Part shown: one piece after another, positions 2,303 through 21,048 of the stretch
How positions within the stretch are numbered: the stretch's first letter is position 1
How the letters are laid out: each line of letters begins with the position of its first letter
Source: Celeribacter ethanolicus
Lineage (GTDB): Bacteria > Pseudomonadota > Alphaproteobacteria > Rhodobacterales > Rhodobacteraceae
Direction: 5' to 3'
Assembly (NCBI RefSeq): GCF_001550095.1
Contig: NZ_LRUC01000025.1
Location: 1-32,788, forward strand
DNA: 32,788 bases
Notes under the pieces: model-generated
Database searches by the model: none
What the model saw: the letters and a program-made list of their open reading frames with translations, nothing else
What the model was told of the DNA's origin: nothing
Translations under genes and position numbers: made by a program

Positions 2303-2998
2303 ATGAACAACAAGCCCTCTATTCGCGTCGAAGGTGCCCTGCAGAACGCTCTGGTCATCGATGATCACCCGCTGTTTTGCGATGCCTTGTCGATGACGTT
2401 GAAAGTCGGGCTTGGGATCGAGGCGGTGCAAACTGCCGGGACGCTGGAAGATGCACTTGCGGCGCTGGACGCCGGGGGGAAACCGGATGTGATCCTCCTG
2501 GATCTGAACCTGCCCGACGTCAACGGCCTCGATGGCCTGGTGCGGTTGATCAAGCTGTGCCCGAAAACTCCGGTGGTGATCGTCTCTTCCATGGCCGAAC
2601 CCAGGGTGGTGCGCTCCGCCATCCGGGTGGGGGCTGCCGGATTTGTCCCGAAACACTCGCCACGGGATGTCTTTCGCAAGGCTTTCGAACATATCGCCAA
2701 CGGCGAGATCTATACACCGGAAGGGGCCTTTGCGGACAGCGAGGCCAACATGCCACTGAGTGCGGGCGAGGATGCGCTGATCCGGCTGTCGCATCTGACC
2801 CGGCAACAGGCCCGGATCCTGCAACTGATCTGCGAGGGTCAGATGAACAAGCAGATCGCCTATGAGCTGTCCATCGCCGAAACCACGGTCAAGGCGCATG
2901 TGACCGCGATCATGCGCAAGCTGGGCGTGCAGAGCCGCACCCAGGCCGTGCTCATCGCGCAGGAAGCGAATTTCAACAGCCTCTTGCCTGACACCTGA
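2303..2998 (+). CDS. LuxR/NarL-type response regulator (ErbR/AgmR-like)
   Basis: The 231-residue regulator has an N-terminal receiver domain (about 15-130) with acidic pocket D20-D21, phosphoacceptor D67 (LLDLNLPD), and conserved K117 (VPKHS). The C-terminal GerE/LuxR helix-turn-helix is at about 163-225 (LTRQQARILQLICEG, IAETTVKAHV, IMRKLGVQSRTQAV). The RBS AAGGG is upstream. It is followed after 36 bp by a FIST sensor and a NahK/ErcS-type kinase, the partners found beside ErbR (AgmR) in Pseudomonas, where this family controls PQQ-dependent ethanol oxidation. It is therefore a candidate to control the quinoprotein cluster to the right. Cognate kinase and targets are inferred from context. 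Confidence 0.85.
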   Translation: MNNKPSIRVEGALQNALVIDDHPLFCDALSMTLKVGLGIEAVQTAGTLEDALAALDAGGKPDVILLDLNLPDVNGLDGLVRLIKLCPKTPVVIVSSMAEPRVVRSAIRVGAAGFVPKHSPRDVFRKAFEHIANGEIYTPEGAFADSEANMPLSAGEDALIRLSHLTRQQARILQLICEGQMNKQIAYELSIAETTVKAHVTAIMRKLGVQSRTQAVLIAQEANFNSLLPDT

Positions 2999-3034
2999 CT
3001 TTCCGCCACCCTTGGGACAGGGATGGAGGACAGG

Positions 3035-7291: not shown

Positions 7292-7330
7292 CGCGGGGCG
7301 GGTCGCAGGGCGTGCTGGACTTTGGTCGTA
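7292..7330. promoter_or_regulatory. Tandem 16-bp inverted-repeat operator, site A
   Basis: 7315-7330 reads CTGGAC-TTTG-GTCGTA, with the right half perfect. A second copy 23 bp upstream (7292-7307) has a perfect right half GTCGCA. The pair lies between the divergent NitT/TauT permease and NosR-like genes and could control both. Confidence 0.6.
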
Positions 7331-7365
7331 TTCGTCGCGCGCGCGGGCATTGTTAGCGTGATCAG

Positions 7366-9462
7366 ATGCGCAGGCTCATTGTCTCACTTCGGGCGCTGAT
7401 TTGGATCGTGCTCAACTTTTTTCCCCTGTCGGTCGCCGCCGCCGGGCCGGAGCCTTTGCCACGCGACGAGATCGCGAAATTGATTGTCCCGCCTTACGCC
7501 TTGGGCGAAGGCATCGACGAGCGGGGCGTCTATCAGCTTTTGAATTCCGGCGGCGCCGAAGTGGGCTATGTCTTCGAAACCGGCCCTCTCGCGCCTTTGC
7601 CCGGCTTCTCAGGTAAGCCGATCAACGCCCTGGTTCTGTTGGATAAATCTGGAATCTTTATCGACGTGCGCTTGCTGTCGCAATATGAGCCGGTCTTTGT
7701 GTCGGGTCTTGGCGAGGCGCCGTTTCGCGAGTTTCTGGCGCAATATCCTGGTCTCTCGATCACCCAAAGCCTGGTCGTCGGCGTGCCTTATGGCGCTGGC
7801 GGCGGCGGGTCCGATCTTGTCTATCTCGACGGCGTCACGAAGGCCACGGCCAGCGTGCGAATCGCGCATGAAAGTATCCTTGCTGCCACGCTGATCGTGG
7901 TCCGCGACAAGATGCAGGGGCTGGCGACATCCACGCCCGCGCGCCCCGATGCGGACGTCAATGAGGCGCTGAGTTGGGCCGATCTCGTGGACCAAGGCAT
8001 CGCGCGGCGCCTCTTCGTCACCAACGCTGAGCTGGATGCTGGTTTTGCCGGTACGATTTGGGCCAGTGACGATCCCGAGGCAAAGGCCGACCCGGAGGGC
8101 CGCTATCTCGATCTCTGGCTGATTGACATCGGCGCGCCCTCGGTGGCGCGGGCGGTCCTGTCCCCCGGCACCTTCGAGGAGGTGCAGCGCTTTCTCGAGG
8201 TCTCGCCCGAGGCCGAGCCTTTTTTGGTCATGGACTATGGGCGACACGGGTTGGTGTCTGATGACTTCGTGCGCAACACCGCGCCGGATCGGCTGTCGGC
8301 GGAGCAGGGCGGCTTTCCCGTGGCGCTGCGCGATGCTGACATCTGGGTCGAACTTGCGCCCGATGTGCCCGAACCCGAGACTGCGATGATCCTGCGCGCC
8401 GACCGGCGGCTGGGGTTCGATCCGATTTCGGAGTGGGGTCTGAAAGTGCAAGCCGTGCGTGAACACGGCATGTTCCAGCCGCAGATCGGCGACACGCATT
8501 TCGAACTGGCTTACAAAGCGCCGGAGCGGTTTTATAGCGTGCCCGAGGTCCACAAACCGCTGCCCGGCTGGCTTGAGGCGGCGTTCAATCGCAAGGCCGA
8601 CCTGATCGCTCTGGCGCTGTTCCTGACCACGCTTTTGGTGCTCGTCGGCCCCTTGATGCATCGCTTTGCGGCACAACGTCATTTCACCGCGCTGCGGCTT
8701 GGCATCCTTTGCGTGGTGATCGGGTTCATCGGTTGGTGGGGACAGGGGCAATTGTCCATCGTGACGGTGCTCGCCGTGCTGCGCGCCGCCGTGGGGGATG
8801 GCAGTCTGTCGGTGTTGTTGTATGACCCGTTTTCGCTGATGATCTGGGCGGTGAGTCTCCTTGGCTTCGTGCTTTGGGGGCGGGGGCTGTTTTGCGGTTG
8901 GCTTTGTCCGTTCGGCGCGATGCAGGAGGTGTTGCATCATGTCGGAAAGGCATTGGGGCTGCGCCAACGCGAGGCGACGCCGCTCTGGGATCGTCGGCTC
9001 AAGAAAGGGAAATACGTCGCGCTGGCGGGGTTGATCGCGATGGCTTTCGTGGCCCCGGACCACGCCGAAAAAGCCGCCGAGATCGAGCCGTTCAAAACCG
9101 CTGTCACGGTCTATTTCCAGCGTGAATGGTATTATGTGGCCTATGCGCTGTTCCTCTTGGCCACGAGTGTGATCTTTTTCAAAGGCTTCTGCCGCTATGT
9201 CTGCCCCTTGGGCGCTGTCATGGCGATTGGAGGCCTGCTCAGAGGCCGCGACTGGATCGCGCGCCGCAAAGAGTGCGGCAGCCCGTGTCAGCTCTGCCGT
9301 GTCAAATGCCGCTACGGGGCAATCAAGAAGACCGGAGAAATCCAATATGATGAATGTTTCCAATGTCTTGACTGCGTTAAAATCCATGACGATCCGACCC
9401 AATGCGTGCCTCTGATCTTGGCGGCGAAACGTCAGGGCAAACCTCAGGAGCGTGCCGCATGA
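7366..9462 (+). CDS. NosR/NirI-family flavin and Fe-S membrane protein
   Basis: The 698-residue protein has a signal or anchor segment (about 5-25) and a periplasmic FMN-binding domain whose motif DGVTKATAS contains the likely covalently flavinylated T161. A large periplasmic region is followed by five or so membrane segments (from about 408 on) with two CXXXCP motifs (CGWLCPFGA and CRYVCPLGA), and a C-terminal pair of [4Fe-4S] motifs (CGSPCQLCRVKC and CFQCLDC) in the last 65 residues. This is the NosR/NirI architecture and length. NosR normally supports nitrous oxide reductase, but no nos gene is seen here. The gene overlaps by 4 bases an ApbE flavinyltransferase and is preceded by the operator shared with the alcohol genes. 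I infer a trans-membrane electron transfer role serving this cluster. Confidence 0.85.
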   Translation: MRRLIVSLRALIWIVLNFFPLSVAAAGPEPLPRDEIAKLIVPPYALGEGIDERGVYQLLNSGGAEVGYVFETGPLAPLPGFSGKPINALVLLDKSGIFIDVRLLSQYEPVFVSGLGEAPFREFLAQYPGLSITQSLVVGVPYGAGGGGSDLVYLDGVTKATASVRIAHESILAATLIVVRDKMQGLATSTPARPDADVNEALSWADLVDQGIARRLFVTNAELDAGFAGTIWASDDPEAKADPEGRYLDLWLIDIGAPSVARAVLSPGTFEEVQRFLEVSPEAEPFLVMDYGRHGLVSDDFVRNTAPDRLSAEQGGFPVALRDADIWVELAPDVPEPETAMILRADRRLGFDPISEWGLKVQAVREHGMFQPQIGDTHFELAYKAPERFYSVPEVHKPLPGWLEAAFNRKADLIALALFLTTLLVLVGPLMHRFAAQRHFTALRLGILCVVIGFIGWWGQGQLSIVTVLAVLRAAVGDGSLSVLLYDPFSLMIWAVSLLGFVLWGRGLFCGWLCPFGAMQEVLHHVGKALGLRQREATPLWDRRLKKGKYVALAGLIAMAFVAPDHAEKAAEIEPFKTAVTVYFQREWYYVAYALFLLATSVIFFKGFCRYVCPLGAVMAIGGLLRGRDWIARRKECGSPCQLCRVKCRYGAIKKTGEIQYDECFQCLDCVKIHDDPTQCVPLILAAKRQGKPQERAA

Positions 9463-10343
9463 GACTTTCTCGACGTCGGTTTATCACGCTTTCAGCCTGT
9501 GCTTTGGCGACACCCGCATGGGCCGCGACGGGGCGTTGGCGGGGCTATGCCTTCGGCGCGGAGGTTTCGCTCGATCTGCGTGGAGCGCACGGGCTTGTCG
9601 AGGCGGATTTGCAAGCGGTGATTGCGGAAATCCGTGCCTTGGAGCGGCGCTTTTCGCTTTATGATCCGGCCTCCGATTTGTCGCGCCTCAATGCGCGTGG
9701 GAAGGGGACTCTGTCACCGGAGATGCGCGAGATTTTGCAGCTGTCACACCGGGTTCATGCCGTGACGGGCGGTCTGTTCGATCCAACAATCCAGCCGCTC
9801 TGGGAGGCTTTGGCACAGGGTGAAGATGTCCTGGCAGCGCACGATCTGATCGGTCTGGATCGGGTCATGCTTGAGGCCGATCATGTCAAACTGGGTGCAG
9901 GTCAAAAACTCAGTTTCAACGGCATCGCGCAAGGTTATGCCACGGATCGGATCGCCGCTCTTCTGGCGGCCCGTGGCTATGGCGAAGCGCTGATCAATAT
10001 GGGGGAATTTGCCGCTTTGGGTGGGCCGTTTCGGTTGGGGCTTGTCGACCCCGAAGCCGGGCGTCTGGGCGCGCTACATCTGAGCGCGGGCGCGATGGCG
10101 AGTTCCAGCCCAAGCGCGATGAGGGTGGGCGGCGAGACGCATATTCTGCACCCCAAAGGTGGAAAAGCGCTGTGGTCGACCGTGACCGTACTCGCAAAAG
10201 GCGCGGGCCAAGCGGCGCTGGCGGATGCAGCCTCGACCGCCTTTTGCCTGATGTCGCGCTCAGACATAGAGACGGCCAAGCGAAAGCTCGGCCTGTCTCG
10301 GGTGTACCTTGTGGATGGCGCGGGCAATCTGAGCTCTCTGTGA
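9459..10343 (+). CDS. apbE: FAD:protein FMN transferase (ApbE/NosX-like), Tat-exported
   Basis: The 294-residue periplasmic enzyme transfers FMN from FAD onto a Thr of a target protein. The N-terminus has a twin-arginine signal (SRRRFITL followed by a hydrophobic stretch and cleavage near PAWA). ApbE motifs are visible: ERRFSLYDPASDLSRLN, GGLFDPTI, NGIAQGYATDRIA, ALINMGEF and a C-terminal ADAASTAF. The ATG at 9459 overlaps the stop of the NosR-like gene, with CAGGAG upstream. The obvious substrate is the DGVTKAT site of that neighbour. An in-frame ATG at 9402 would remove the signal peptide from the N-terminus and is less likely. Confidence 0.9.
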   Translation: MRLSRRRFITLSACALATPAWAATGRWRGYAFGAEVSLDLRGAHGLVEADLQAVIAEIRALERRFSLYDPASDLSRLNARGKGTLSPEMREILQLSHRVHAVTGGLFDPTIQPLWEALAQGEDVLAAHDLIGLDRVMLEADHVKLGAGQKLSFNGIAQGYATDRIAALLAARGYGEALINMGEFAALGGPFRLGLVDPEAGRLGALHLSAGAMASSSPSAMRVGGETHILHPKGGKALWSTVTVLAKGAGQAALADAASTAFCLMSRSDIETAKRKLGLSRVYLVDGAGNLSSL

Positions 10344-10346
10344 CGC

Positions 10347-11249
10347 TCAGCGCTCGGGCGGCAGAAAGCTCAGGCCATGTTCGACAAAAATGGCTTCGAT
10401 CCGCCCATCCGCCAGCGCTTTTTCAATCGCGTAATCGACGGCATAGCCCAGATCGCGGTGCTGTTGGTTGACGGCGACGCCCACGGTCCAGCTGTTGCGC
10501 ACCAGACCGGGCAGGGGAGGTTGATGCACGCCGAACCCCTCTTCCAGCCCTGCCTCGATCACCGCCAAAGGCGCCATGACGGCCATGGTTTCGCCCGAAG
10601 TCATGCCCGCGACGGCGGCGTCCGAAGAGCGGTAGCGATGGATCGCGTCCCCGATGGCGCCGCGTCCGACAGAGGTCAGGTAGAAATCCGACAGGCTGTC
10701 GTTTTCCACTGCTACCGTGTCGAATCGAAAGTAGGCAGGCGTCGGTTTGGCATCGGGATAGTCGGCCTCGCTGTAGCCGATGGCCAAGGCCTCTCCCGCA
10801 TATTGTCCCGTGAAAACAACCTGTTCGATGCGACAGGTCAACTCGCTGTCATAGGGCACATGCAGCATGACGTCAGAGACGCGCCCGCCTACTGTGGCGC
10901 CTTTCCAGACGTAGTTGCGCAGATCCGCGTCGAGGGTTTCGTCGGCCTGCACGAGGCGAAAGCGGGGCGTGACCCCAAGATCTTCGGCGATGATCCGGCC
11001 GATTTCGACGTCGATGCCTTTGGCCTTGCCGCCCTCTTCATAGGACCAGGGCGGGAAGTCTTCGTAGAGGGCGAACTCGATCCAGCCCTCGTCTATGATG
11101 CGGTCGAACGCGCGGCCGACATCCTGCGCGAAGGTGTTTTGCGGTTTCGGGCCGGGAACATAGTCCTCACAGCGCGCGAAAGCCGGTCCCGCGAAAGCGA
11201 GACCGGCGAGCAGGGCCACGAGAGGGCCCGATGTGATGTGACGGCGCAT
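10347..11249 (-). CDS. Quinoprotein dehydrogenase-associated binding protein (MoxJ/XoxJ-like)
   Basis: The 300-residue periplasmic protein is of the type II solute-binding fold, with a signal peptide ending AFA near residue 25. Characteristic stretches include YEDFPPWSYEE, KGIDVEIGRIIAEDLG, MLHVPYDSEL and RNSWTVGVAVN. This family sits beside PQQ alcohol dehydrogenases (MxaJ, XoxJ) and is thought to assist maturation of the quinoprotein or its partner cytochrome rather than transport. The ATG follows the stop of the PedF-like cytochrome by three bases, with GGAG upstream, so the two are co-transcribed. The 3' end converges on apbE with only 3 bp between stops. Confidence 0.85.
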   Translation of the reverse strand: MRRHITSGPLVALLAGLAFAGPAFARCEDYVPGPKPQNTFAQDVGRAFDRIIDEGWIEFALYEDFPPWSYEEGGKAKGIDVEIGRIIAEDLGVTPRFRLVQADETLDADLRNYVWKGATVGGRVSDVMLHVPYDSELTCRIEQVVFTGQYAGEALAIGYSEADYPDAKPTPAYFRFDTVAVENDSLSDFYLTSVGRGAIGDAIHRYRSSDAAVAGMTSGETMAVMAPLAVIEAGLEEGFGVHQPPLPGLVRNSWTVGVAVNQQHRDLGYAVDYAIEKALADGRIEAIFVEHGLSFLPPER

Positions 11250-11252
11250 GGT

Positions 11253-11951
11253 TCACTCCGCCGCAGAGAGGCCCACCGTCAGAAGATCGGCGGTGTGTTT
11301 CCACGTCGCAGGATCGTCGGTCATATTGCGCGCGGCCTCAAACGCCACGCTGTCGGCGACCGGCGCGCCGGAGCCAGTTTCGACCTCGGCGGCGATGCTG
11401 GCAAGCTCTTCCTGTACTCCGGTCGGGTTGTCGACGTCACCGGCCAGAAGGTGGTCGCGAATTTCGATGAGACGCGTCATGTGATCGTCGAGCGCGCCAT
11501 CGTCGGGGCGGGTTTCGATATAGGTGCGGATCGCCCAGGCGGCTTTCTGGCCCAGAAGCTCCCCGAAAGCAGGCATCTTGGTGATGCCGTTTTGGGTCAT
11601 GCCGAGCTGGAACCGCTCGACAAACCATTCGTCGCCGTATTCCTCGGCTTCGAGATAGCGCAGATCGGGGGCCAGACCGCCCGACACCGCGCCAAGCCCG
11701 TGGCAGCGGGCACAGTTCTGGTTGAACCCCGAGGAGCCGATCTCGATGGCCTTGAGCCAGACCTCTTCGCCCGCTTCCTCCGCACGGTAGGGGTTTTCGG
11801 TCAACCATTCTTCGCCCACATCGGGCAAGGCGTCGGTGTTCACCGGCTGCGGGGTCACATCGCCATGGGCGAAGGCGGCGGTGGCAACTGCGGCGGCCAG
11901 CGTTGTGGTTAGTGCGGTGAGCAAGGCGGTGCGTTTTACAGCGTTTTTCAT
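11253..11951 (-). CDS. pedF: Cytochrome c550, PedF-like
   Basis: The 232-residue periplasmic monoheme cytochrome has a signal peptide ending near AFA-HGDVTPQ. The heme motif is C80-A-R-C83-H84 (QNCARCHGL) and M126 (ITKMPAFG) is the likely axial ligand. The HGDVTPQ start, WLTENPYR and SGFNQNCARCHGL are typical of PedF, the electron acceptor of PQQ ethanol dehydrogenases. An approximately 80-residue acidic C-terminal tail without Cys follows the heme domain and seems longer than usual. The start at 11951 is set by GGGAGGA five bases upstream; an in-frame ATG at 12005 lies further out. First gene of a leftward operon with the MoxJ-like protein. Confidence 0.87.
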   Translation of the reverse strand: MKNAVKRTALLTALTTTLAAAVATAAFAHGDVTPQPVNTDALPDVGEEWLTENPYRAEEAGEEVWLKAIEIGSSGFNQNCARCHGLGAVSGGLAPDLRYLEAEEYGDEWFVERFQLGMTQNGITKMPAFGELLGQKAAWAIRTYIETRPDDGALDDHMTRLIEIRDHLLAGDVDNPTGVQEELASIAAEVETGSGAPVADSVAFEAARNMTDDPATWKHTADLLTVGLSAAE

Positions 11952-12012
11952 TGGGTCCTCCCATCGTTTTCCCATGAATATCTCTGCCGCGAAGGCGCGC
12001 GCCATTAGACCT

Positions 12013-12051
12013 TGGTGCCACTGTCCGAATGGGCATGCGACTTTGGTCGTG
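12013..12051. promoter_or_regulatory. Tandem 16-bp inverted-repeat operator, site B
   Basis: 12036-12051 reads TGCGAC-TTTG-GTCGTG, one base from a full inverted repeat. A weak copy lies exactly 23 bp upstream (12013-12028, with GTC at the same phase). The site is between the divergent pedF-like and pedA1-like operons. Confidence 0.65.
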
Positions 12052-12098
12052 GTTCGCCTCCAACGGTGCGCGGCATAGGGTTTCTTGGAGGGAGGACG

Positions 12099-13280
12099 AT
12101 GATGACAAGGACGTGGTGTGTCATAGGGCTTATGGCCTTCGTCTCTGCGATGCCAGCCTCGGTTCGGGCGGAGGAGATCGACATTTCAATCGGCTATCTG
12201 CGGTTGGAGACCCCGTCGCGCCCGGTCTTGTCGGGGCTCGATCCGATCCCGCCCGCGCGTGGCATCGAAGGCGCGGAACTGGCGCTCAAAGACAATCAGA
12301 CGACGGGCGGGTTTCTGGGGCATCATTATACGATGGATGTTGTGTCCGTGCCGCCAGAAGGGGATGTGACCGCAGCGGCGCAGGCAATGCTCGCGGGCCA
12401 TGATCTTGTGCTGCTCGACATGGACGACGAGGCCCTGTTGCAAGTGGCGGATCTGCCTGTCGCGCAGGCGGCTTTGGTCTTCAATGTCTCGGAAAAGACC
12501 CCGGCGCTGCGCAGTGCGGATTGCCGGGCCAACCTGTTTCACACCGTGCCGGAGCTGGGCATGGAGGCGGATGCCTTGATGCAGGTTTTGATGGGAAAAC
12601 GCTGGACCAAACTGGCGCTGATCGAGGGGCCAAGCGCGGAGGACGCGGCGCTGGCGCAAAGCTATCGCGATGCGGCGTGGAAATTTGGGCTCAAGATTGT
12701 CTCCGAAGCGAGCTGGACCTTTGACACCGATCTGCGGCGCGCCGCCGCCCGCGAGGTGCCGTTGTTCACGCAAGATTTCAAAGCGCATGACGTGGTGCTG
12801 GTCGCCGACGCACATGACGATTTCGCCCGCTACATCGAACACAACACATGGGAGCCGCGCCCGGTCGCGGGTGCCGTGGGGCTGGTGGCGGAGGCCTGGG
12901 CGCCCGTCGTCGAACAATGGGGCGCGGCGCAGTTGCAGAGCCGGTTCGAGGACCTGACACAGCGCGACATGACGGCGGAGGATTACGCCGCCTGGGCCGC
13001 CGTGCGGGTGATTGGCGAGGCGGTGACGCGGACCGGATCGGCGGAGCCCGACGTGCTGCGCGACTATATTTTGTCCGACGGATTTGAACTGGCGGCCTTT
13101 CAGGGCAGGCCTTTGAGTTTTCGCACCTGGAACGGCCAGATGCGCCAACCGATCCCGGTGGTGAACGCCCATGCGCAGGTGGCCTCGGCCCCGCCGGACG
13201 GGTTCGAACATGCGCGAAATCCGCTCGACACTTTGGGGTTGGATCAGATGGAAAGTGACTGCCATGCTTTTGAAAACTAA
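12099..13280 (+). CDS. ABC transporter substrate-binding protein of PQQ alcohol dehydrogenase system (PedA1-like)
   Basis: The 393-residue periplasmic type I binding protein (LivJ-like fold) has a signal peptide ending SVRA-EEIDISIGYL. Characteristic parts are RGIEGAELALKDNQTTGGFLGHHY and the middle domain KRWTKLALIEGPSAED. It belongs to the binding-protein group that accompanies PQQ alcohol dehydrogenases. The ATG at 12099 follows GGAGGGAGGA; 12102 is an equally possible start. It overlaps the next gene by 17 bases. In Pseudomonas putida the homologous PedA1A2BC transporter is linked to lanthanide response, so metal or chelator uptake is a reasonable guess, not shown by sequence. Confidence 0.85.
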   Translation: MMTRTWCVIGLMAFVSAMPASVRAEEIDISIGYLRLETPSRPVLSGLDPIPPARGIEGAELALKDNQTTGGFLGHHYTMDVVSVPPEGDVTAAAQAMLAGHDLVLLDMDDEALLQVADLPVAQAALVFNVSEKTPALRSADCRANLFHTVPELGMEADALMQVLMGKRWTKLALIEGPSAEDAALAQSYRDAAWKFGLKIVSEASWTFDTDLRRAAAREVPLFTQDFKAHDVVLVADAHDDFARYIEHNTWEPRPVAGAVGLVAEAWAPVVEQWGAAQLQSRFEDLTQRDMTAEDYAAWAAVRVIGEAVTRTGSAEPDVLRDYILSDGFELAAFQGRPLSFRTWNGQMRQPIPVVNAHAQVASAPPDGFEHARNPLDTLGLDQMESDCHAFEN

Positions 13281-14232
13281 GATCTCTGCCAGTCTTTTGG
13301 CGCTCGCGTTCGCTTTGCCCGCGACCGCCTCCGAGATTTGGGTCAGCAATGAAAAAGACGACACGCTCTCGGTGATCGACATCGACACTTTGGAGGTCGT
13401 GCGCACGATCGAGGTCGGCGAACGCCCGCGCGGCATCACCTTTAATTCGGATCACACGCGGCTCTATATCTGCGCCTCCGACAGCGATGCGGTGCAGGTG
13501 ATGGACCCGGAGACGGGCGAAATTCTACACGATTTGCCCTCGGGCGAGGATCCGGAGCAATTCGTGCTGCACCCGGATGACCGGCATCTGTGGATCGCCA
13601 ATGAGGACGACGCGGTGACCACGGTTGTCGATGTCGAGACGCGCAAAGTGGTGGCCCAGATCAACGTCGGCATCGAGCCCGAAGGCATGGCGGTCTCGCC
13701 CGATGGCAAGACGGTGATCACCACGTCGGAGACGACGAATATGGCGCATTGGATCGACACGGGCACGCATAAGATTTACGCCAACACGCTGGTCGATGCG
13801 CGGCCCCGTCATGCGGAATTTGTCAAGGAGGGGACCGAGCTTTGGGTCTCGTCCGAGATTGGCGGCACGATCACGGTGTTCGACACGGCGGACCAAAGCG
13901 AGACGGGCAAGATTCACTTTGAAATTCAGGGCGTGCACCCCGATCTTATCCAACCCGTGGGCTTCGAACTGACACCGGATCACAAGACCGCTTTTGTCGC
14001 CCTTGGCCCCGCGAACCATGTCGCCGTTGTGAACACCGAGACGCTTGAGGTCGAGGCTTACATCCTCGTCGGGCGCCGGGTCTGGCACATGGCCTTTTCG
14101 CCGGATCACAGCCAGCTCTTCACCACCAATGGGGTGAGCGGGGACGTGACGGTGATTGATGTTGCCTCCCGCAAGCCGGTCAAGACCATCAAGGTGGGGC
14201 GGTTTCCCTGGGGCGCAGCCGTGCGCCCATGA
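13264..14232 (+). CDS. PQQ catabolism-associated YVTN beta-propeller protein (PedA2-like)
   Basis: The 322-residue periplasmic protein has a signal peptide ending TAS-EIWVSNEKDD. The rest is a run of approximately 42-residue YVTN-type propeller repeats, e.g. DDTLSVIDIDTLEVVRTIEVG, GITFNSDHTRLYICASDSD, AVQVMDPETGEI, ending DVTVIDVASRKPVKTIKVG. Seven blades fit the length. The ATG at 13264 overlaps the preceding gene by 17 bases, giving tight coupling. It is known as a constant companion of the PQQ-linked ABC transporter and may act as a periplasmic binding accessory. The 3' end of the coding region carries one of two tandem hairpins. Confidence 0.88.
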   Translation: MLLKTKISASLLALAFALPATASEIWVSNEKDDTLSVIDIDTLEVVRTIEVGERPRGITFNSDHTRLYICASDSDAVQVMDPETGEILHDLPSGEDPEQFVLHPDDRHLWIANEDDAVTTVVDVETRKVVAQINVGIEPEGMAVSPDGKTVITTSETTNMAHWIDTGTHKIYANTLVDARPRHAEFVKEGTELWVSSEIGGTITVFDTADQSETGKIHFEIQGVHPDLIQPVGFELTPDHKTAFVALGPANHVAVVNTETLEVEAYILVGRRVWHMAFSPDHSQLFTTNGVSGDVTVIDVASRKPVKTIKVGRFPWGAAVRP

Positions 14233-14257
14233 ACATAGTGGGCGCAGCCATGCGCCC
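14211..14257 (+). repeat. Tandem hairpin repeat at end of propeller gene
   Basis: Two near-identical 18-bp hairpins (GGGCGCA-GCCG-TGCGCCC at 14211-14228 and GGGCGCA-GCCA-TGCGCCC at 14240-14257) lie 29 bp apart. The first is within the last codons of the propeller gene; the second is in the gap before the acidic protein gene. No T tract follows, so they are more likely mRNA-processing or stability elements, or a local duplication, than a terminator. Confidence 0.65.
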
Positions 14258-14285
14258 TTAAGTATCTAATATAGAGGAATATTAC

Positions 14286-14726
14286 ATGCGTTACGCACTC
14301 ATTGCCGCTGCGCTTCTCGCCGCCACATCCGCTTTTGCTGATGACGATGATGCCCCCGAATTCGGCCTCGCAGGCATCCTGTCGGCAACCAATTCCGAAG
14401 ACCTACCGCCGATTACACTCTCCGCCGGGCAGCCCTTGGCCGAAGCACCGCTCAAGCTCAAATCCGGCACCTATTACGAGATCGAGATCGAGGCCGATGG
14501 CTCGCAGGAACTGGCGCTCGAAGGGGCGGGGTTCTTTCGCGCGATCTGGATCGATGAGATCGTGATCGAAGGGCTGGAAATTCGGCCTTTGGGCATCGAC
14601 AGCGTCGAATTCGACGAGGCGGGCACGATGGAAATCGGTTTCGTCGCGATCAAACCGGGGCGCTACGAGCTGCGCGTGCCGCAATCTTCGGGCGATCTGC
14701 AACGGTTGGAGATCACGATTGAATAA
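14286..14726 (+). CDS. Acidic secreted protein of unknown function in transporter operon
   Basis: The 146-residue protein has a clear signal peptide (MRYALIAAALLAATSAFA) cleaved before DDDDAPEFG. The mature chain is strongly acidic (about 27 Asp/Glu against about 8 Lys/Arg by eye), has no Cys or His, and looks like a beta-sandwich: alternating hydrophobic strands (YYEIEIEADG, AIWIDEIVIEGLEIRPLGI, MEIGFVAIKPGRYELRV). I do not recognise the family. It lies between the propeller gene and the ATPase gene (10 bp before the latter), with GAGGA upstream, so it should be part of this transporter operon. A role in periplasmic cation handling is speculation based on charge and context. Confidence 0.85.
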   Translation: MRYALIAAALLAATSAFADDDDAPEFGLAGILSATNSEDLPPITLSAGQPLAEAPLKLKSGTYYEIEIEADGSQELALEGAGFFRAIWIDEIVIEGLEIRPLGIDSVEFDEAGTMEIGFVAIKPGRYELRVPQSSGDLQRLEITIE

Positions 14727-14735
14727 GGCAGGCGA

Positions 14736-15452
14736 ATGACCGGGTTAAACGTCGAAAATATCACCCACGACTGGGGCGCGAAACGCGCGCTGGATGGCGT
14801 GAGCTTTTCGGTTGCACCGGGTCAGTTTTGCGCGCTTTTGGGCCCAAACGGGGCGGGGAAATCGACGCTTTTCGGGCTTTTAACGCGGTTGTTCACGCCT
14901 CGCACCGGGCGGATTGAGATGGCGGGGCATGACGTGTCCCGCGATCCGCTCCGGGCGCTTTCGAAAACCGGTGTGGTGTTTCAACAGCCGACGCTCGATC
15001 TCGATCTCTCCGTGTGGCGCAATATGCTCTATTTTGCGGGGCTTCATGGCATCACAGGTCGCGTGGCACGGAGTGCAGCCTCCGAGGCTTTGAACCGTTT
15101 GGGCATGGAGGAACGCGCGCGCGAACGGGTGCGGGACCTCAATGGCGGGCACCGGCGGCGGCTGGAGATCGCCCGCGCGCTGATGCATCGCCCTGAGGTG
15201 TTGCTATTGGACGAGCCGACCGTGGGGCTCGACGCGCAGACCCGCAGCGATCTGGTTGCGCATGTGCACGGGCTGGCGCGAGATACCGGTCTGGCGGTGC
15301 TTTGGGCGACGCATTTGACCGATGAGATTTGGTCGGGTGATCAACTTGTGGTCTTGCATCAAGGCCGTGTGTTGGAGCAGGGCGAGGTGCCCGTCACAGG
15401 CGTGGCTTTGACGGAACATTTCCTGAGACTGACCGAGAGCGAGGGCGCATGA
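14736..15452 (+). CDS. pedB: ABC transporter ATPase, PQQ alcohol dehydrogenase system (PedB-like)
   Basis: The 238-residue cytoplasmic ATPase has Walker A GPNGAGKST (36-44), Q-loop VFQQPTLD (about 81-88), a signature sequence that reads LNGGH (135-139) instead of LSGGQ, Walker B LLLDEP (156-161) and the switch His in WATHL. The LNGGHRRR signature is typical of the ATPases accompanying PQQ alcohol dehydrogenases. It overlaps the permease gene by 4 bases. It is closest to ABC-2-type drug/lipid/metal exporters and uptake systems such as LutE of the methylotroph lanthanide cluster. Direction and substrate are not determined by the sequence. Confidence 0.9.
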   Translation: MTGLNVENITHDWGAKRALDGVSFSVAPGQFCALLGPNGAGKSTLFGLLTRLFTPRTGRIEMAGHDVSRDPLRALSKTGVVFQQPTLDLDLSVWRNMLYFAGLHGITGRVARSAASEALNRLGMEERARERVRDLNGGHRRRLEIARALMHRPEVLLLDEPTVGLDAQTRSDLVAHVHGLARDTGLAVLWATHLTDEIWSGDQLVVLHQGRVLEQGEVPVTGVALTEHFLRLTESEGA

Positions 15453-16240
15453 GACATGCCTTGGCCGCACTCTGGGTGATCTGCCTCCGCGAGGCGCTGC
15501 GCTTTCTGGGCCAGCGCGCGCGGATGCTGGCGGCGCTGGTGCGGCCGCTGGTGTGGCTCTTTGTCTTCGCGGCAGGCTTTCGTGCCGCTCTGGGCCTCTC
15601 GATCACGCCGCCGTATCAGACCTATATCTCCTATGAGACCTACATCGTGCCGGGGCTCTGCGGCATGATTTTGCTGTTCAATGGCATGCAATCCTCGCTC
15701 TCTCTGGTGATGGACCGCGAGATGGGGACGATGCGGCTGTTGCTCACGGCCCCTCTGCCGCGCTGGTGGTTGTTGAGTTGCAAGCTGATCGCAGGGGCGC
15801 TGATTTCGGTGCTTCAGGCCTATGCCTTCCTCGCCATTTGCGCGCTCTACGGCATCACATTTGCGCCTCTGGGCTATGTCACGATCCTGCCGGCGCTGTT
15901 TCTCACCGCCCTCATGGTCGGCGCCCTTGGCATCGCTTTGTCGTCCACAATCAAACAGTTGGAGAATTTCGCAGGCGTGATGAATTTCGTCATCTTTCCG
16001 ATGTTCTTCCTCTCCACCGCGCTCTATCCGCTCTGGAAAATGGCGGAGGCTTCTGCACTTTTGGAATGGATATGTCGCCTCAATCCCTTCTCTTACGGGG
16101 TAGAGAGCATAAGGTTTGCGCTCTATCTGACGCCCAATCCGCTGGCTTGGGGCGTTTGTGTGGGGGCGTCGATTGCTTTTATGGCGCTGGCGCTTTGGGG
16201 CTATGACCCAGCGAAACGGATGATCGGGCGCAAGTTCTGA
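15449..16240 (+). CDS. pedC: ABC-2-type permease, PQQ alcohol dehydrogenase system (PedC-like)
   Basis: The 263-residue inner-membrane protein has six predicted hydrophobic segments (about 28-45, 66-84, 110-132, 138-165, 175-192, 230-250). Typical ABC-2 features are SLVMDREMGTMRLLLTAPLPRWWLLSCKLIAG in part and ALYPLWKMAE near the fifth segment. It starts inside the ATPase stop codon region (ATGA overlap). Together with the upstream ATPase, propeller and binding protein it completes a PedA1A2BC-like transporter. The operon probably ends here; the next gene has its own operator. Confidence 0.88.
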   Translation: MRHALAALWVICLREALRFLGQRARMLAALVRPLVWLFVFAAGFRAALGLSITPPYQTYISYETYIVPGLCGMILLFNGMQSSLSLVMDREMGTMRLLLTAPLPRWWLLSCKLIAGALISVLQAYAFLAICALYGITFAPLGYVTILPALFLTALMVGALGIALSSTIKQLENFAGVMNFVIFPMFFLSTALYPLWKMAEASALLEWICRLNPFSYGVESIRFALYLTPNPLAWGVCVGASIAFMALALWGYDPAKRMIGRKF

Positions 16241-16243
16241 ACT

Positions 16244-16282
16244 TGCGACTTTGGTCGCAGGGGGGCTTGGACCTTTGTCTCA
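16244..16282. promoter_or_regulatory. Tandem 16-bp inverted-repeat operator, site C
   Basis: 16244-16259 is a perfect inverted repeat TGCGAC-TTTG-GTCGCA, only 3 bp after the permease stop codon. A degenerate copy 23 bp downstream (16267-16282) reads TTGGAC-CTTT-GTCTCA. The pair precedes the Sel1-repeat protein gene. Confidence 0.7.
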
Positions 16283-16332
16283 TTCGGCATCGAGGCCGTC
16301 TCTGGCATGATCGCCTTCGGGAGGACTGTCAT

Positions 16333-16896
16333 ATGAAGCGTATTTGGTTCGCGATGGCCTTCGCCGCACCGCTCTTCGCGGAAGACCTACCGATGGAGCT
16401 TGGCCCCGACACCCATGTCGACGAGCAGGGCACGCTCAACCCGCATGAGATGTCGATGGCGCAGGTGATGGAGAACATCCGCGAGGGCGACACGGGGATG
16501 GTGATCTGTTCTCAGGGCTATCTGATCACGAAATCCGGACGCCACGAATTGGCGCGCGAGCTGTTTTCCAACTGTGCGGACGCGGGCTGGACCGGGGCGA
16601 TGACCTGGATGAGCCAGCTCGATGACAACGGGCTGGGCGGGCCACAGGATCTGGAGGCCGCAGCCGAGTGGAACCGCAAGGCGGCAGAGGCGGGCGATCC
16701 GGTGGGCAAGTTCAACCACGGACTGGACCTGATGCGCGGCTGGGGCGTGCCGCGGGACGAGGCGGCGGGCCGCGCGCTTGTGGATGAGGCGGCGGACGAA
16801 GGCCTGGCCGTGGCGCAGCGGTTGCAGCGCGCGGAGTACGACCTCGACGAGGTGACGCCCGACGCCGATGAATGGCGCTATCTCAACCTGTTTTGA
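16333..16896 (+). CDS. Secreted Sel1-repeat protein
   Basis: The 187-residue protein has a short signal peptide (MKRIWFAMAFAAPLFA) and at least two Sel1/TPR-like repeats: ELARELFSNCADAGWTGAMTWMSQ, then DLEAAAEWNRKAAEAGDPVGKFNHG, then DEAAGRALVDEAADEGLAVAQRL. Such repeats serve as protein-protein scaffolds. Two cysteines (in MVICSQ and FSNCAD) might form a disulfide. The start is set by GGGAGGAC nine bases upstream of the ATG at 16333. It has its own operator (site C) and a terminator-like hairpin after it, so it is a single-gene unit of the alcohol cluster. Partner unknown; a quinoprotein or cytochrome assembly role is possible. Confidence 0.85.
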   Translation: MKRIWFAMAFAAPLFAEDLPMELGPDTHVDEQGTLNPHEMSMAQVMENIREGDTGMVICSQGYLITKSGRHELARELFSNCADAGWTGAMTWMSQLDDNGLGGPQDLEAAAEWNRKAAEAGDPVGKFNHGLDLMRGWGVPRDEAAGRALVDEAADEGLAVAQRLQRAEYDLDEVTPDADEWRYLNLF

Positions 16897-16904
16897 CGCG
16901 AAAT

Positions 16905-16943
16905 TACGACCAAAGTCGTAGAGAGCCCTCGACCAATGTCGGG
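16905..16943. promoter_or_regulatory. Tandem 16-bp inverted-repeat operator, site D (best copy)
   Basis: 16905-16920 is the perfect palindrome TACGAC-CAAA-GTCGTA. A second copy 23 bp downstream (16928-16943) reads CTCGAC-CAAT-GTCGGG and is embedded in a terminator-like hairpin. The pair lies about 100 bp upstream of the cytochrome c gene. Confidence 0.7.
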
Positions 16944-16951
16944 GGCTTTTC
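16924..16951 (+). terminator. Terminator-like hairpin after Sel1 gene
   Basis: A 10-bp stem with one G-T pair (AGCCCTCGAC at 16924-16933 and GTCGGGGGCT at 16938-16947) and a CAAT loop is followed by TTT. It fits a rho-independent terminator for the Sel1 gene, but its core is also the second operator copy. Confidence 0.6.
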
Positions 16952-17023
16952 TTGAGGCAGGTCAACCCTTTGGAGGAGGCTCTCGCGCAATGATACTTCA
17001 AACAGTCGCTTAGGAGAGACTCG

Positions 17024-17410
17024 ATGAAACCCAAATATTTCGCCGCCGCTTTGATCCCGGCACTCTTTGCAACTGTCGCCTTTGCGGGCGAATACGATGC
17101 CATCAAAACCGCCGCAGGGGCCGAGTTCTTCGACAAGGAATGCCACCGCTGCCACGCCGTCGATGCCGACCGCGCGAGCTATGGCCCGCTTTTGACCGGC
17201 GTCGTGGGGCGCCAGGCGGGGACGTTCGAGGGCTACCCCTATTCCGAGGCATTGGCCAATGCTGGTTTCGTCTGGACCAAAGGCGCGATCCGGGCCTGGA
17301 TGGAGGATAATGACGCGCTCGTTCCGGGGACGAAAATGCGCCACGTGGGCGTGAGTGATCCGACGGTGCAGGATTTCATCGTCACCTATCTGGCCTCGAT
17401 TTCCGAGTGA
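17024..17410 (+). CDS. Small class I c-type cytochrome
   Basis: The 128-residue periplasmic monoheme cytochrome has a signal peptide ending AFA-GEYD. Heme attachment is C40-H-R-C43-H44 (KECHRCHAVD), with M105 (PGTKMRHVG) as probable sixth ligand and the C-terminal helix VQDFIVTYLASIS. The fold resembles cytochrome c2/c552. It could carry electrons between the quinoprotein/PedF cytochrome and a terminal oxidase. AGGAG is upstream of the ATG. It is preceded by the best operator copy and ends 1 bp from the stop of the convergent ATPase gene. Confidence 0.92.
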   Translation: MKPKYFAAALIPALFATVAFAGEYDAIKTAAGAEFFDKECHRCHAVDADRASYGPLLTGVVGRQAGTFEGYPYSEALANAGFVWTKGAIRAWMEDNDALVPGTKMRHVGVSDPTVQDFIVTYLASISE

Positions 17411-17411
17411 T

Positions 17412-18071
17412 TTAAGCGGTGGCGCGGAGCGTGGCAGGGCAGCCGTCGAGGCACAACACCCGATCCGCCAGCCGCGCGGCCTCCGTACGGTCGTGAGTGA
17501 CTAAGAGCGTCGTCGTGCCGTGCTGCGCGCGCAGAGTCTCGAACAGCTGCATCATCTCATCGGCCAAAGTGGCGTCGAGCGACACAAAGGCCTCGTCCAT
17601 CAGCAACAGATCGGGCATGGCCGCAAAAGCGCGGGCCAGCGCGAGGCGACGTTGTTGGCCTAAAGACATCTGTTCGGGGAATTGATCGGCATGATCAGAG
17701 AGGCCGACGGCGGCGAGCCAGTCGAGCGCCTCTGCCTTGGAAATCCCGGTGGTCAGGGTGAGGTTCTGCCACGCCTTGCGCCAGGGCAAAAGCGTCGGAC
17801 TTTGAAACACAGCCGACAGCCGGGGCGGGCGGGTGATCTCGCCCTCATAGTCGCGGTGCAGCCCGGAGATGACCCGAAGTAACGTGGTTTTGCCAACCCC
17901 TGACGGGCCGGTCAGCGCAACGGTTTCGCCCGCACGGATGTCGAGCTTTACGGGGCCTAAAATCTGCGCGCCGCCGGCGGAAACAGAGCGCAGATCGAGG
18001 TGCAGCAAGGCGGCCTTCACAGGGAAAGCCGCCTCAGACCCGTCCGAGAGGATCGACAGGTCATGTCTCAT
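17412..18071 (-). CDS. NitT/TauT-type ABC transporter ATPase
   Basis: The 219-residue cytoplasmic ATPase of the SsuB/TauB/NrtD group has Walker A GPSGVGKTT (55-63), Q-loop VFQSPTLLPW, a signature that reads MSLGQQRR, Walker B LLLMDE and switch His in LVTHDRTEA. The start codon overlaps the stop of the binding-protein gene by 4 bases, so the two are translated together. No permease gene adjoins; the only candidate partner in the window is the permease at 6461-7267. Confidence 0.88.
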   Translation of the reverse strand: MRHDLSILSDGSEAAFPVKAALLHLDLRSVSAGGAQILGPVKLDIRAGETVALTGPSGVGKTTLLRVISGLHRDYEGEITRPPRLSAVFQSPTLLPWRKAWQNLTLTTGISKAEALDWLAAVGLSDHADQFPEQMSLGQQRRLALARAFAAMPDLLLMDEAFVSLDATLADEMMQLFETLRAQHGTTTLLVTHDRTEAARLADRVLCLDGCPATLRATA

Positions 18072-19051
18072 GAGGCCGGATCATAGAAGGTGCCTGCGGG
18101 CAGGGTGGTCGCTTGGCCGACCAGTTCCTCGCCGCCGAGTTTGGCCATGAGAGCAAGCATCTTGGATGCATCTTCTTCGGAGACCGGACCTTCGGCGGGA
18201 ATGCCCGCGATCCAACCGGCTTTCATGGCCTCGAATTGCGCGTCGTTTTTGACATTCATCCGCTCGCGCAACCGCTCCCAGGCCGCGTCATCTGTGGCCA
18301 AAAGCACCTTGGCTTGCCGCGAGGCGGCGGCCAGACCTTTGACCAGTTCGGGATGTTCGGCCAACACCTCGCCCCGCACCACATAGCCCAAAAGCGGCGT
18401 GTCTGGGTTGAGGCCCAGAGCCAGAGCGGCCTCAGAGGTGGAGGCCAGAAGCCGCATGCCGGAGGCTTCCATCTTGGCGCCGAAATGCCAGAAATTGATC
18501 GCGCCCTCCAGCTCACCCGAGAGCGCGGATTTGAAGATCAGCGGCGGCGCGCCGAACACCTGCTCGGTCTCAGCGGCGAGGTCCTGACCCGTCATCTGTT
18601 CGGCATAGGCGCGCAGGATCAGCCAGCTTTTGTCATTGGGTCCGCCCGCGATACCGATCTTGCCGCCTTTTAGGTCCGCAAGGGTTTGCGCAGGGCTGTC
18701 TTTCGGCACGTAGAGCCCGCCGACGGCCTTGGAATAGGGGAGGAACACATAGTCCTTGCCCTCGGCGCGTTGGGCGGCGACCCAGAGCCAATCGGCCACG
18801 ATCATATCGACTTCGCCCGCGGCAAGGGCTACGCGCGAGGCGGCGGCGCCTGCGACATCCATCGGCTCCAAGGTAAAACCCTGTGCGGTGTCAAAGCCGT
18901 TGTGGCGGATGGTGTCGACCTCCCAGGCCACGGTGCCGGACATGTAAAGCGCGGCCTTGAGCGTCGGCAGATCTTCGGCCTTGGCGGCCAGAGCGCCCGT
19001 GAGTGACATCGCCGCCGCCAGAGCGGCCAGCCCTTTGGTGAATTTCATCAT
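18068..19051 (-). CDS. NitT/TauT-type ABC transporter substrate-binding protein
   Basis: The 327-residue periplasmic binding protein (SsuA/TauA/ThiY-like) has a signal peptide ending LAAKA-EDLPTLKAALY. Typical parts are VAGAAASRVALAAGEVDMIVADW, DLKGGKIGIAGGPNDKSWLIL and AEHPELVKGLAAASRQ. It reads divergently from the PQQ dehydrogenase gene, with GGGAGGAC before the ATG and operator copies in the shared upstream region. Substrates of this family include nitrate, sulfonates and thiamine precursors; this sequence does not decide. Context suggests a need linked to quinoprotein function. Confidence 0.87.
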   Translation of the reverse strand: MMKFTKGLAALAAAMSLTGALAAKAEDLPTLKAALYMSGTVAWEVDTIRHNGFDTAQGFTLEPMDVAGAAASRVALAAGEVDMIVADWLWVAAQRAEGKDYVFLPYSKAVGGLYVPKDSPAQTLADLKGGKIGIAGGPNDKSWLILRAYAEQMTGQDLAAETEQVFGAPPLIFKSALSGELEGAINFWHFGAKMEASGMRLLASTSEAALALGLNPDTPLLGYVVRGEVLAEHPELVKGLAAASRQAKVLLATDDAAWERLRERMNVKNDAQFEAMKAGWIAGIPAEGPVSEEDASKMLALMAKLGGEELVGQATTLPAGTFYDPAS

Positions 19052-19101
19052 GTGCAGTCCTCCCTGATTTTGAGTCTAGGCCCGGCCGGGAGACCGCGAA
19101 A

Positions 19102-19177
19102 TACGACCAAAGCACAGGAGCGGTTTGAAAACCTGTTGAAAAGGACAGGTCGCAGGGGGCCTACGACCAATGGCCAA
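19102..19177. promoter_or_regulatory. Operator copies between binding-protein and PQQ dehydrogenase genes, site E
   Basis: Three partial copies: TACGAC-CAAA at 19102-19111 (left half perfect), a right half GTCGCA at 19149-19154, and TACGAC-CAAT at 19162-19171 (left half perfect). The last two are in the same 23-bp register as at the other loci. The rest of the 230-bp intergenic region shows no other clear element besides GGGAGGAA before the dehydrogenase start. Confidence 0.55.
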
Positions 19178-19281
19178 TATGCGTGATGCCTCCGCATGCC
19201 GATCATTGCGGGGTATGAGCCCTGTCCTTCGCGCCTGTCCAGCTCGGAGGATCGTGCCTTGATTTCTATGGGAGGAACAAA

Positions 19282-21048
19282 ATGAACAGGTTTGTAACGG
19301 CTGCGACGGCGGCCATCATGAGCTTTGGGCTTGCGGGCGGGGCCGTTGCCGGGGTCACCGAGGAAGACCTTTTGAACGACGCCACCACGCCGGGCGATGT
19401 GTTGACCAACGGCATGGGGCGCGATCTTCAGCGTTATTCGCCGCTCGATACGCTCAATAAGGACAACATCGAAAATCTTTTCCCGGCCTGGGCGTTCAGC
19501 TTTGGCGGTGAAAAACAGCGCGGTCAGGAAACCCAACCGCTGATCTATGACGGGGTCATGTATGTCACCGGGTCCTATTCGCGGATGTATGCGATTGATC
19601 TGAAAACCGGCGAGGAGCTTTGGCAGTATGACGCACGTCTGCCCGAAGGCATTCTGCCGTGTTGTGATGTGATCAACCGCGGTGGGGCGATTTACGGCGA
19701 CAACATCTATTTCGGCACGCTGGACGCGCGCATCGTGGCGCTCGATCTGAAGACCGGCGATGTGAAATGGAACAAGAAAATCGCCGATTATAAAGAGGGA
19801 TATTCCTACACGGCGGCGCCGCTGATCGTGAACGGGCTGGTGATCACCGGCAACTCCGGCGGCGAATTCGGCATCGTCGGCGAGGTGCAGGCCCGTGACG
19901 CGGAGACCGGCGATCTCGTGTGGACCCGTCCGGTGATCGAGGGCCATATGGGCACGCTCAATGGCGAAGAAAGCACCATGACCGGCACGCTCAATGCCAC
20001 CTGGCCGGGCGATATGTGGAAAACCGGCGGCGGCGCCACATGGCTTGGCGGCTCTTATGATGCCGATACCGACACTTTGGTCTTTGGCACCGGCAACCCG
20101 GCGCCGTGGAACTCGCATCTGCGCAATGCCGGCACGCCGACCGAAGGCAACAAAGGCGACAACCTCTATGCCGCCTCGCGTCTGGGCATCGACCCGGCCA
20201 CCGGCGAGATCAAATGGCATTTCCAGACCACGCCGCGCGAGGGCTGGGACTTTGACGGGGTGAACGAGGTCGTGGCTTTCACCGACAAGGACGGCAACAA
20301 ACGGTTCGCGACCGCCGACCGCAACGGGTTCTTCTACGTGCTGAACCGTGAAGATGGCGCTTTCGTCAATGCGACGCCGTTTGTGTCCAACATCACCTGG
20401 GCCGAGGGCATCGACGAGACGGGCCGGCCGATCTATGTCGAAGACGCGCGTCCAGGCAATCCTTTGGAGGCCGAAAAGGGCCAGATGGTGTTTTCCGTGC
20501 CGTCCTTCCTGGGGGGCAAAAACTGGATGCCGATGGCGCACAGCCAGAAGACCGGGATGTTCTACGTGCCGTCGAACGAATGGGGTATGGACATCTGGAA
20601 CGAGCCGATTTCCTACAAGAAAGGCGCGGCTTATCTTGGTGCGGGCTTTACCATCAAGCCCATCTTTGAAAGCCATATCGGCTCTTTGAAAGCCATTGAG
20701 CCGGAAACCGGCGACATCAAATGGGACTTCCAGAACGACGCACCGCTCTGGGGCGGTGTGATGACCACGGCGGGCGGCCTCGTGTTCTTCGGCACCCCTG
20801 AAGGCGAGTTCATCGCGCTGGATGACGAGACCGGTGAAAAGCTTTGGTCCTTCCAGACCGGCTCCGGCATCGTTGGCCAGCCGGTGACCTATGAGTTCGA
20901 AGGCGAGCAATATGTCACCATCGTCTCCGGCTGGGGCGGCGCGGTTCCGCTTTGGGGCGGGGAAGTGGCCAAAAAGGTCAACTACCTGAACCAGGGCGGC
21001 ACGGTCTGGACCTTTAAACTGCCGAAACAACTGGCCATGGCGAACTGA
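19282..21048 (+). CDS. exaF: PQQ-dependent alcohol dehydrogenase, probably lanthanide-dependent (ExaF/PedH type)
   Basis: The 588-residue periplasmic eight-bladed quinoprotein of the methanol/ethanol family oxidises alcohols to aldehydes (some members go on to acids) and passes electrons to cytochrome c. The signal peptide ends near [10 protein letters not shown]. Visible are the vicinal disulfide C127-C128 under PQQ ([11 protein letters not shown]), metal ligands E195 (GGEFG) and N272 (GTGNPAPW), catalytic D323 and, two residues on, D325 (GWDFDGVNE). D325 is the extra Asp that marks lanthanide-using enzymes. Sequence around CCDVINRG fits the ExaA/ExaF/PedH alcohol clade better than XoxF; the symbol is tentative. 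GGGAGGAA precedes the ATG. PQQ synthesis genes are not in the window. Confidence 0.92.

Follow-up and report, generated by a model that had tools for sequence, protein, structure and literature searches.

The 32,788-nucleotide stretch of Celeribacter ethanolicus DNA analysed here at its full length (the window; assembly GCF_001550095.1, contig NZ_LRUC01000025.1) carries a ped-type alcohol oxidation cluster, with proteins assigned by the PedF, PQQ_ABC_bind, PQQ_ABC_ATP, PedC permease and beta-propeller models (PQQ, pyrroloquinoline quinone; ABC, ATP-binding cassette). In its intergenic regions lies a 16-bp inverted repeat, TACGACCAwwGTCGTA, which is predicted to be the operator of the LuxR-type response regulator encoded at position 2303. 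A sequence-only reading of the window had described the repeat as TRCGAC-N4-GTCGYA, each copy accompanied by a weaker one at exactly 23 bp, and had taken it to define an undescribed regulon. The sites and the genes discussed are collected in Table 1.

Table 1. Predicted operators, promoter box and genes of the window discussed in the text; operator scores in bits are from the matrix built on relatives.
Feature	Position	Strand	Basis and remarks
LuxR/NarL-type response regulator, AgmR/FlhR-like; proposed binder	2303..2998	+	Pfam (REC + GerE)
FIST-domain NosP-like protein	3023..4267	+	Pfam FIST N and C; NosP model 374 bits, cut-off 450
PAS hybrid histidine kinase, NahK/ErcS'-like	4036..6486	+	open frame; start may differ
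Predicted operator	7315..7330	+	16.5 bits; between NosR-like gene (+) and SsuC-like permease gene (-)
Predicted operator for pedF	12005..12020	-	12.2 bits; 31 bp from 12036; overlooked in the sequence-only reading
Predicted operator of PQQ-ABC substrate-binding gene (TIGR03863) and downstream ped ABC genes	12036..12051	+	16.6 bits
Predicted upstream operator of Sel1-like gene	16244..16259	+	17.7 bits; perfect palindrome
Predicted promoter-proximal operator of Sel1-like gene	16267..16282	+	14.6 bits; 23 bp from 16244
Predicted operator of cytochrome c gene	16905..16920	+	21.4 bits; top site of the window
Second operator-like site at cytochrome c	16928..16943	+	11.6 bits; within terminator-like hairpin
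FNR/CRP-type box TTGAGGCAGGTCAA, cytochrome c promoter	16952..16965	+	TTGAN6TCA conserved
Cytochrome c gene	17024..17410	+	Pfam Cytochrom_C; c-550 CycA model 71.5 bits, under cut-off 240
Predicted operator of leftward NMT1-like/ABC genes	19102..19117	-	11.5 bits
Predicted operator of PQQ alcohol dehydrogenase gene	19162..19177	+	16.4 bits
PQQ-dependent alcohol dehydrogenase (methanol/ethanol family)	19282..21048	+	TIGR03075 768 bits, cut-off 480

All coordinates in the sequence-only reading carry the sequence it described, and a mismatch count bears out the perfect palindromes it placed at 16244 and 16905; the 12036 site has one mismatch, and those at 7315 and 19162 have three each. The loose consensus proves nothing alone, because at up to three mismatches it finds 41 matches in the window against 44.3 expected from shuffles, and it was rejected as evidence. 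The signal emerges once the middle CCAAA/CCAAT is added: TRCGACYAWWGTCGYA with at most one mismatch yields three genome rows, all inside the window. At up to two mismatches there are 30 genome rows against 26 for the reversed-pattern control, which is not above control; strong palindromes outside the window were therefore rejected as background, and half-site targets may still lie there. The shorter pattern YRCGACCAAWG has 37 genome matches, six of them in the window, against 10 for its control. The 19102 element, previously called a further half-site copy, is a site, but one in its own right and best placed for the divergent NMT1-like gene.

The operator motif is real and conserved in many relatives. 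These were the best 80 of 575 loci from a scan for the PQQ-dependent alcohol dehydrogenase (PQQ-ADH), searched within the fetched flanks, and Celeribacter sp. HF31 is the nearest among them (98%). Upstream of PQQ-ADH, 40/80 loci carry the core CGACCAWWG, as do 28/42 upstream of the NMT1-like gene and 20/28 upstream of cytochrome c; the reversed control has three, one and one matches, respectively. An unsupervised motif search that left out the window and its closest relative (L056) recovered TACGACCAwwGTCGTA-like sites from the PQQ-ADH set (79 upstream regions) and from the cytochrome c, NMT1-like, NosR-like and PQQ-ABC sets. We then scored sites with a smoothed matrix of 91 seed core matches from seven upstream groups at a cut-off of 10 bits, dropping L056, matches below 35% identity and upstream regions that ran off the available DNA. 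Sites of at least 10 bits precede PQQ-ADH in 77/79 loci, pedF in 60/63, the PQQ-ABC binding gene in 61/64, the NMT1-like gene in 38/41, the NosR-like gene in 16/18 and cytochrome c in 23/27; the Sel1-like gene (19/60) and the SsuC-like permease gene (4/11) have them less often. Intra-operon genes gave 0-6% and permuted matrices 7-15%. Since the matrix was seeded from these seven groups, their counts are in part built in; sequences upstream of the regulator gene and the loci lacking PQQ-ADH considered below took no part in the seeding. Matches inside the NahK-like gene (37/58) were taken as conserved coding sequence. These conserved sites agree with the proposal that the motif ties the NosR-like, Sel1, NitT/TauT-like and cytochrome genes to the PQQ dehydrogenase, and supply the conservation upstream of orthologous genes for which the sequence-only reading had asked.

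The exact pattern TACGACCAWWGNNCAATW was found in 10 of 149 genomes drawn evenly from the order, our own included, and its reversed control in none; in all ten the near end of the match lies 94-116 bp before the PQQ-ADH match. This pattern was written after the alignment had been viewed, and its genomes may equal or adjoin species of the 80 loci.

The sites stand at a fixed distance from a putative -10 hexamer. In 158 of 305 gene-locus rows from seven gene groups, a [TG]A...T hexamer starts 23 to 25 bp past the end of the site, and every other offset has 0-11; a site between divergent genes can count twice, and pedF is the weakest group. Because the hexamer begins at this distance, the site would lie at about -51 to -36. 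In the window, the 7315 site has TAGCGT at +24 rightwards (7354-7359) and TACAGT at +25 leftwards (7290-7285), the 12036 site has TAGGGT at +25 (12076-12081), the 19102 site TAGACT at +24 (19078-19073) and the 19162 site GATCAT at +24 (19201-19206). At the Sel1-like gene the -10 is absent at the usual distance from the 16244 site; the 16267 site has CATGAT at +24 (16306-16311), in which only the A and T fit the pattern.

The cytochrome c promoter is organized differently, and in the window no -10 hexamer lies at +23 to +25 from its operator. Upstream of this gene TTGAN6TCA, an FNR/CRP-type box, is present in 24 of 29 regions (the window and L056 included), where the background is 0.02 per 310 bp. 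It is rarer before the NMT1-like (7/42), NosR-like (5/29), PQQ-ADH (3/80), Sel1-like (2/61), pedF (1/65) and PQQ-ABC (1/68) genes. In 10 of the 24 regions a -10-like hexamer begins 29.5 bp, and in 8 of them 30.5 bp, from the box centre (AATGAT at 16989-16994 in the window), which would place the box near -41.5 of the start. Operators of at least 8 bits lie upstream of the box at centre-to-centre distances of 23 bp (10 cases), 33-35 bp (11) and 46-48 bp (5), with six distances elsewhere; 10 of the 24 boxes have one exactly 23 bp upstream. Within 90 bp, at a threshold of 9 bits (n = 29), the distances are phased at 10.5 bp with R of 0.80, and the printed p of about 1e-8 is overstated because the species are related. 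The two sites of the window, 16905 and 16928, are 46 and 23 bp away from the FNR-type box. Just past the Sel1-like gene, a 13-pair hairpin whose end is rich in U (-21.3 kcal/mol, z -4.8) overlaps the 16928 site; the pattern scanner lists no terminator there.

The regulator encoded at 2303, already put first by the sequence-only reading, is on sequence grounds the best candidate for the protein that binds these sites. This LuxR-type regulator is present in 59 of the 80 loci, a count limited by the flanks. In the even draw of 149 genomes (thresholds 1e-55 and 1e-200) it accompanies PQQ-ADH in 37 of 37 genomes that have this enzyme, our own included, and occurs in 22 of the 112 that lack it. For 12 loci fetched from these 22 genomes, sites precede the regulator gene in 5/12 and follow the kinase gene in 4/11, against means of 0.4 and 0.3 for permuted matrices. 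Of the four loci with a site after the kinase gene, two (L222 and L224) were read further, and both have a CoxG-like gene next. We also note that in L221-L224, where the operator-like site follows the kinase gene, the CoxG-like gene of L222 precedes molybdenum hydroxylase (CO dehydrogenase-like) genes. AgmR-like proteins and ErdR have almost the same recognition helix as the 2303 protein (TTVKAHVTAIMRKL), whereas the helix of the paralogue L137 differs from it. Five Pseudomonas-like loci (L179-L183), whose AgmR identity is taken from their gene neighbours, encode a homologue with 42-44% identity, and four of the five have related sites, often of the form TACTACCwwGGTAgTA.

Another LuxR/NarL-type regulator elsewhere in the genome, ErdR/CrbR-like or NarL-like, could be the binder instead, and ErdR/CrbR-type proteins do have most of the same recognition helix and motif. 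We regard this as unlikely: the 2303 protein is by far the top match to the ErdR model in its own genome (176 bits, the next two 96 bits each), L137, one of those two, has a different helix, and the sites are linked to the 2303 orthologue in nine of the twelve loci lacking PQQ-ADH. Separately, the genome holds two regulator genes of equal score, at C10:5850-6458 and C48:117567-118175.

We consider it likely that the element is the operator of the 2303 regulator, acting by class II activation, and that at the cytochrome c gene it forms a composite promoter with an FNR-type factor. Conservation of the motif, its spacing from the -10 hexamer, its phasing with the FNR-type box and its linkage to the regulator gene all point this way. 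In this model the NahK-like kinase would probably be modulated by the NosP-like FIST protein, the signal being an alcohol, an aldehyde or nitric oxide (NO). With the kinase active, a dimer of the regulator would bind the inverted repeat, which would stand in for the -35 box at most promoters; since the repeat replaces this box, with the -10 hexamer 23-25 bp beyond, the regulator would be a class II activator. The genes that it would turn on are those of the PQQ dehydrogenase and PedF, the ABC genes associated with PQQ, both the NosR-like and the NMT1-like operon and, in some relatives, the regulator gene itself. The class II place at the cytochrome c promoter would be occupied by an FNR/CRP-type factor, and the regulator would bind farther upstream, at a distance of about 23, 34 or 46 bp and on the same face of the helix. 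The supply of the electron carrier would then answer jointly to alcohol or NO signalling and to oxygen or NO.

The same sites might instead be used for repression, as proposed for RfdR of Rhodobacter sphaeroides. A review has RfdRS as a presumed repressor of adhI (PMC4776306), and in P. aeruginosa an erdR mutant showed raised expression of most of the ErdR targets tested (PMC9927353). Against this, a site at the -35 place with a -10 at a fixed distance has the geometry of activation, and CrbR (PMC5715377) and AgmR (PMC12997753) are reported as activators, so that a repressor seems improbable.

Several observations weigh against activation by the 2303 regulator. The best NCBIfam model for this protein is ErdR (NF041830), with 176 bits under a cut-off of 390, and its neighbours fall below the cut-offs for NosP (374 against 450) and NahK/ErcS (355 against 400); these are relatives, not equivalogs. 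A tree joins the regulator to the AgmR-like group with weak support (83/12), and the wider group without ErdR has 82/81. Three of the twelve loci lacking PQQ-ADH (L226, L227 and L231) have no site before the regulator or after the kinase gene. The Pseudomonas-like sites are a variant, with a -10 at the expected place in two of 18 site/orientation rows, and L182, one of the five loci, is without a site match at that stringency. In the window, the matrix scan finds no site before the 2303 gene itself; the regulator gene of 22 of 59 relatives does have one of at least 10 bits. The -10 of pedF is weak in the window (12005 site), and with that of the NosR-like gene transcription would begin on or close to the annotated ATG at 7366; either this start or this codon may therefore be misassigned. 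In the unsupervised search a different motif came out best for each of the sets of pedF, the Sel1-like gene and the regulator, and the exact form TACGACCAWWGNNCAATW occurs in only 10 of the 37 genomes with PQQ-ADH, 27 being without it. Finally, the site counts are not independent events, because the loci are related and divergent intergenic regions are counted for both genes.

The sequence-only reading had every site as a 23-bp pair bound by two regulators about two helical turns apart, the LuxR-type protein and, second, the OmpR-type protein at 21112. Exact pairs do score as sites at 16244/16267 and 16905/16928, and these are the only two in the window; of the other second copies claimed, 12013 is weak (4.5 bits) and 7292 (-6.9 bits) and 19139 (-3.9 bits) are background. 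For 257 strong sites in relatives, five partners scoring 8 bits or more lie at 23 bp, where the mean over spacings is 2.8 (standard deviation 4.6) and the neighbouring 24 bp has 14; pair spacings peak at 14, 24, 28-29, 33 and 43 bp. The 24 and 28-29 bp pairs come mainly from the region between pedF and the PQQ-ABC genes, where two sites fit two divergent promoters. An earlier matrix with almost no pseudocount gave 23 bp in 1.9 and 2.4% of sites against a background of 1%, and other offsets up to 10%. A spacing of 23 bp is thus not preferred in relatives except at the cytochrome c promoter, and exact pairing was rejected as a general rule. The OmpR-type protein, matched in only 3/80 loci with a median identity of 31.6%, is not conserved within the fetched flanks although the site is, and we rejected it as a co-regulator. 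Together these results leave the two-regulator model very improbable. The absence of the motif before the regulator and liv operons, which had also been claimed, does stand: none of the 20 best matches of the window precedes the 2303, OmpR-type or liv genes.

That the sites are chance palindromes and terminator stems, as the shuffle-level loose consensus and the hairpin around 16928 might suggest, has almost nothing left to recommend it for the main sites given their conservation and fixed -10 spacing, an argument that does not cover 16928.

Some neighbouring features bear on the physiology of the cluster. Inside the alcohol regulon, positions 7366-10343 hold the gene of a NosR-like ferredoxin-type membrane protein and an ApbE-family gene; no nitrous oxide reductase was seen among the window proteins scanned. 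A short pattern for the metal-type motif of PQQ-ADH had no match and was dropped. The pqq genes searched in the genome were pqqD and pqqE; the first gave no match and the second a single one of 45 bits, under its cut-off, and the PQQ cofactor of the encoded dehydrogenase may have to come from outside.

Among known elements the repeat most resembles one of Gammaproteobacteria including Pseudomonas fluorescens, the ACTU motif of CrbR (ErdR), a 16-17 bp imperfect inverted repeat like TAC[G/T]ACCAwwGTCGAAT at -52 to -36 through which CrbR acts as an activator (PMC5715377); the motif matches listed there include TACGACTAAAGTCTAAA and TACTACCAAAGTCTAAT. Both elements work, or would work, through a LuxR-type response regulator with a near-identical recognition helix, and both have the same promoter position, which here follows from the -10 hexamers, with cytochrome c as the exception. 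CrbR serves acetate genes (acs, actP) with an SLC5-type kinase (PMC5715377), whereas here the element belongs to a ped/PQQ alcohol cluster in which a NosP-like protein partners a NahK-like kinase and one promoter is predicted to be a composite of the FNR type. EmaR (PMC9603970) and RpuR (PMC9100948), two further LuxR-type regulators, have sites of another kind, a direct repeat in the case of RpuR.

In gene content the closest parallel is AgmR (PedR1/ErbR) of Pseudomonas, encoded near nosP and nahK homologues and the ped genes, which it controls as an activator (PMC12997753). AgmR also activates the pqq operon (PMC12997753), whereas here neither PqqD nor a PqqE above cut-off was found in the genome; the site half is TACGACC here and TACTACC in Pseudomonas, and here the regulator, nosP-like and nahK-like genes form one co-directional row. 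The order of regulator, open frame and kinase recurs in Alphaproteobacteria as flhR-orf2-flhS of Paracoccus denitrificans and afdR-afdT-afdS of Rhodobacter sphaeroides, as well as in RfdRTS of the latter, systems for methanol/formaldehyde regulation (PMC8879981, PMC4776306) with glutathione-dependent formaldehyde dehydrogenase and methanol dehydrogenase as known targets. Operators at formaldehyde dehydrogenase genes were rejected: in 17 chosen genomes, with two of the five copies of our own included, the 300 bp upstream hold a site of 9 bits or more in 2/20 loci (best 11.9 bits), which is not convincing. The genome itself shows four formaldehyde dehydrogenase matches of near-equal score, on contigs C26, C34, C50 and C52, and its listed contamination is 4.18%.

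The regulon is thus not undescribed as a kind, since descriptions exist of the AgmR regulon in Pseudomonas and the FlhRS regulon in Paracoccus and the CrbR ACTU has nearly the same sequence and position; what appears new is the operator, as our literature search, which subscription papers lay outside, found none published for the AgmR/FlhR/AfdR group. The element is probably an ACTU-type operator of an AgmR/FlhR-type response regulator, of a known kind and, we infer, with an activating role. We further favour, with moderate confidence, the view that this regulator and its ACTU-like site form a portable unit wired to PQQ-ADH, or to a CoxG-led operon in some genomes without it, and acting jointly with an FNR-type factor at cytochrome c. 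This would give a sequence-level operator to a group whose regulons we found described only from mutants and expression, and make regulons for PQQ-dependent alcohol oxidation readable from genome sequence in Rhodobacterales.

The composite FNR-type promoter is the most unusual feature of this operator system. Class I and class II promoters with FNR/CRP-family factors are a known promoter type, which the cytochrome c promoter resembles in having its box at about -41.5 with a -10-like hexamer 29.5-30.5 bp from the centre. It differs from them in the partner, here a LuxR-type response regulator predicted to bind the same face of the helix at about 23, 34 or 46 bp upstream, and this arrangement predicts joint control of cytochrome c by the LuxR-type regulator and an FNR-type factor.

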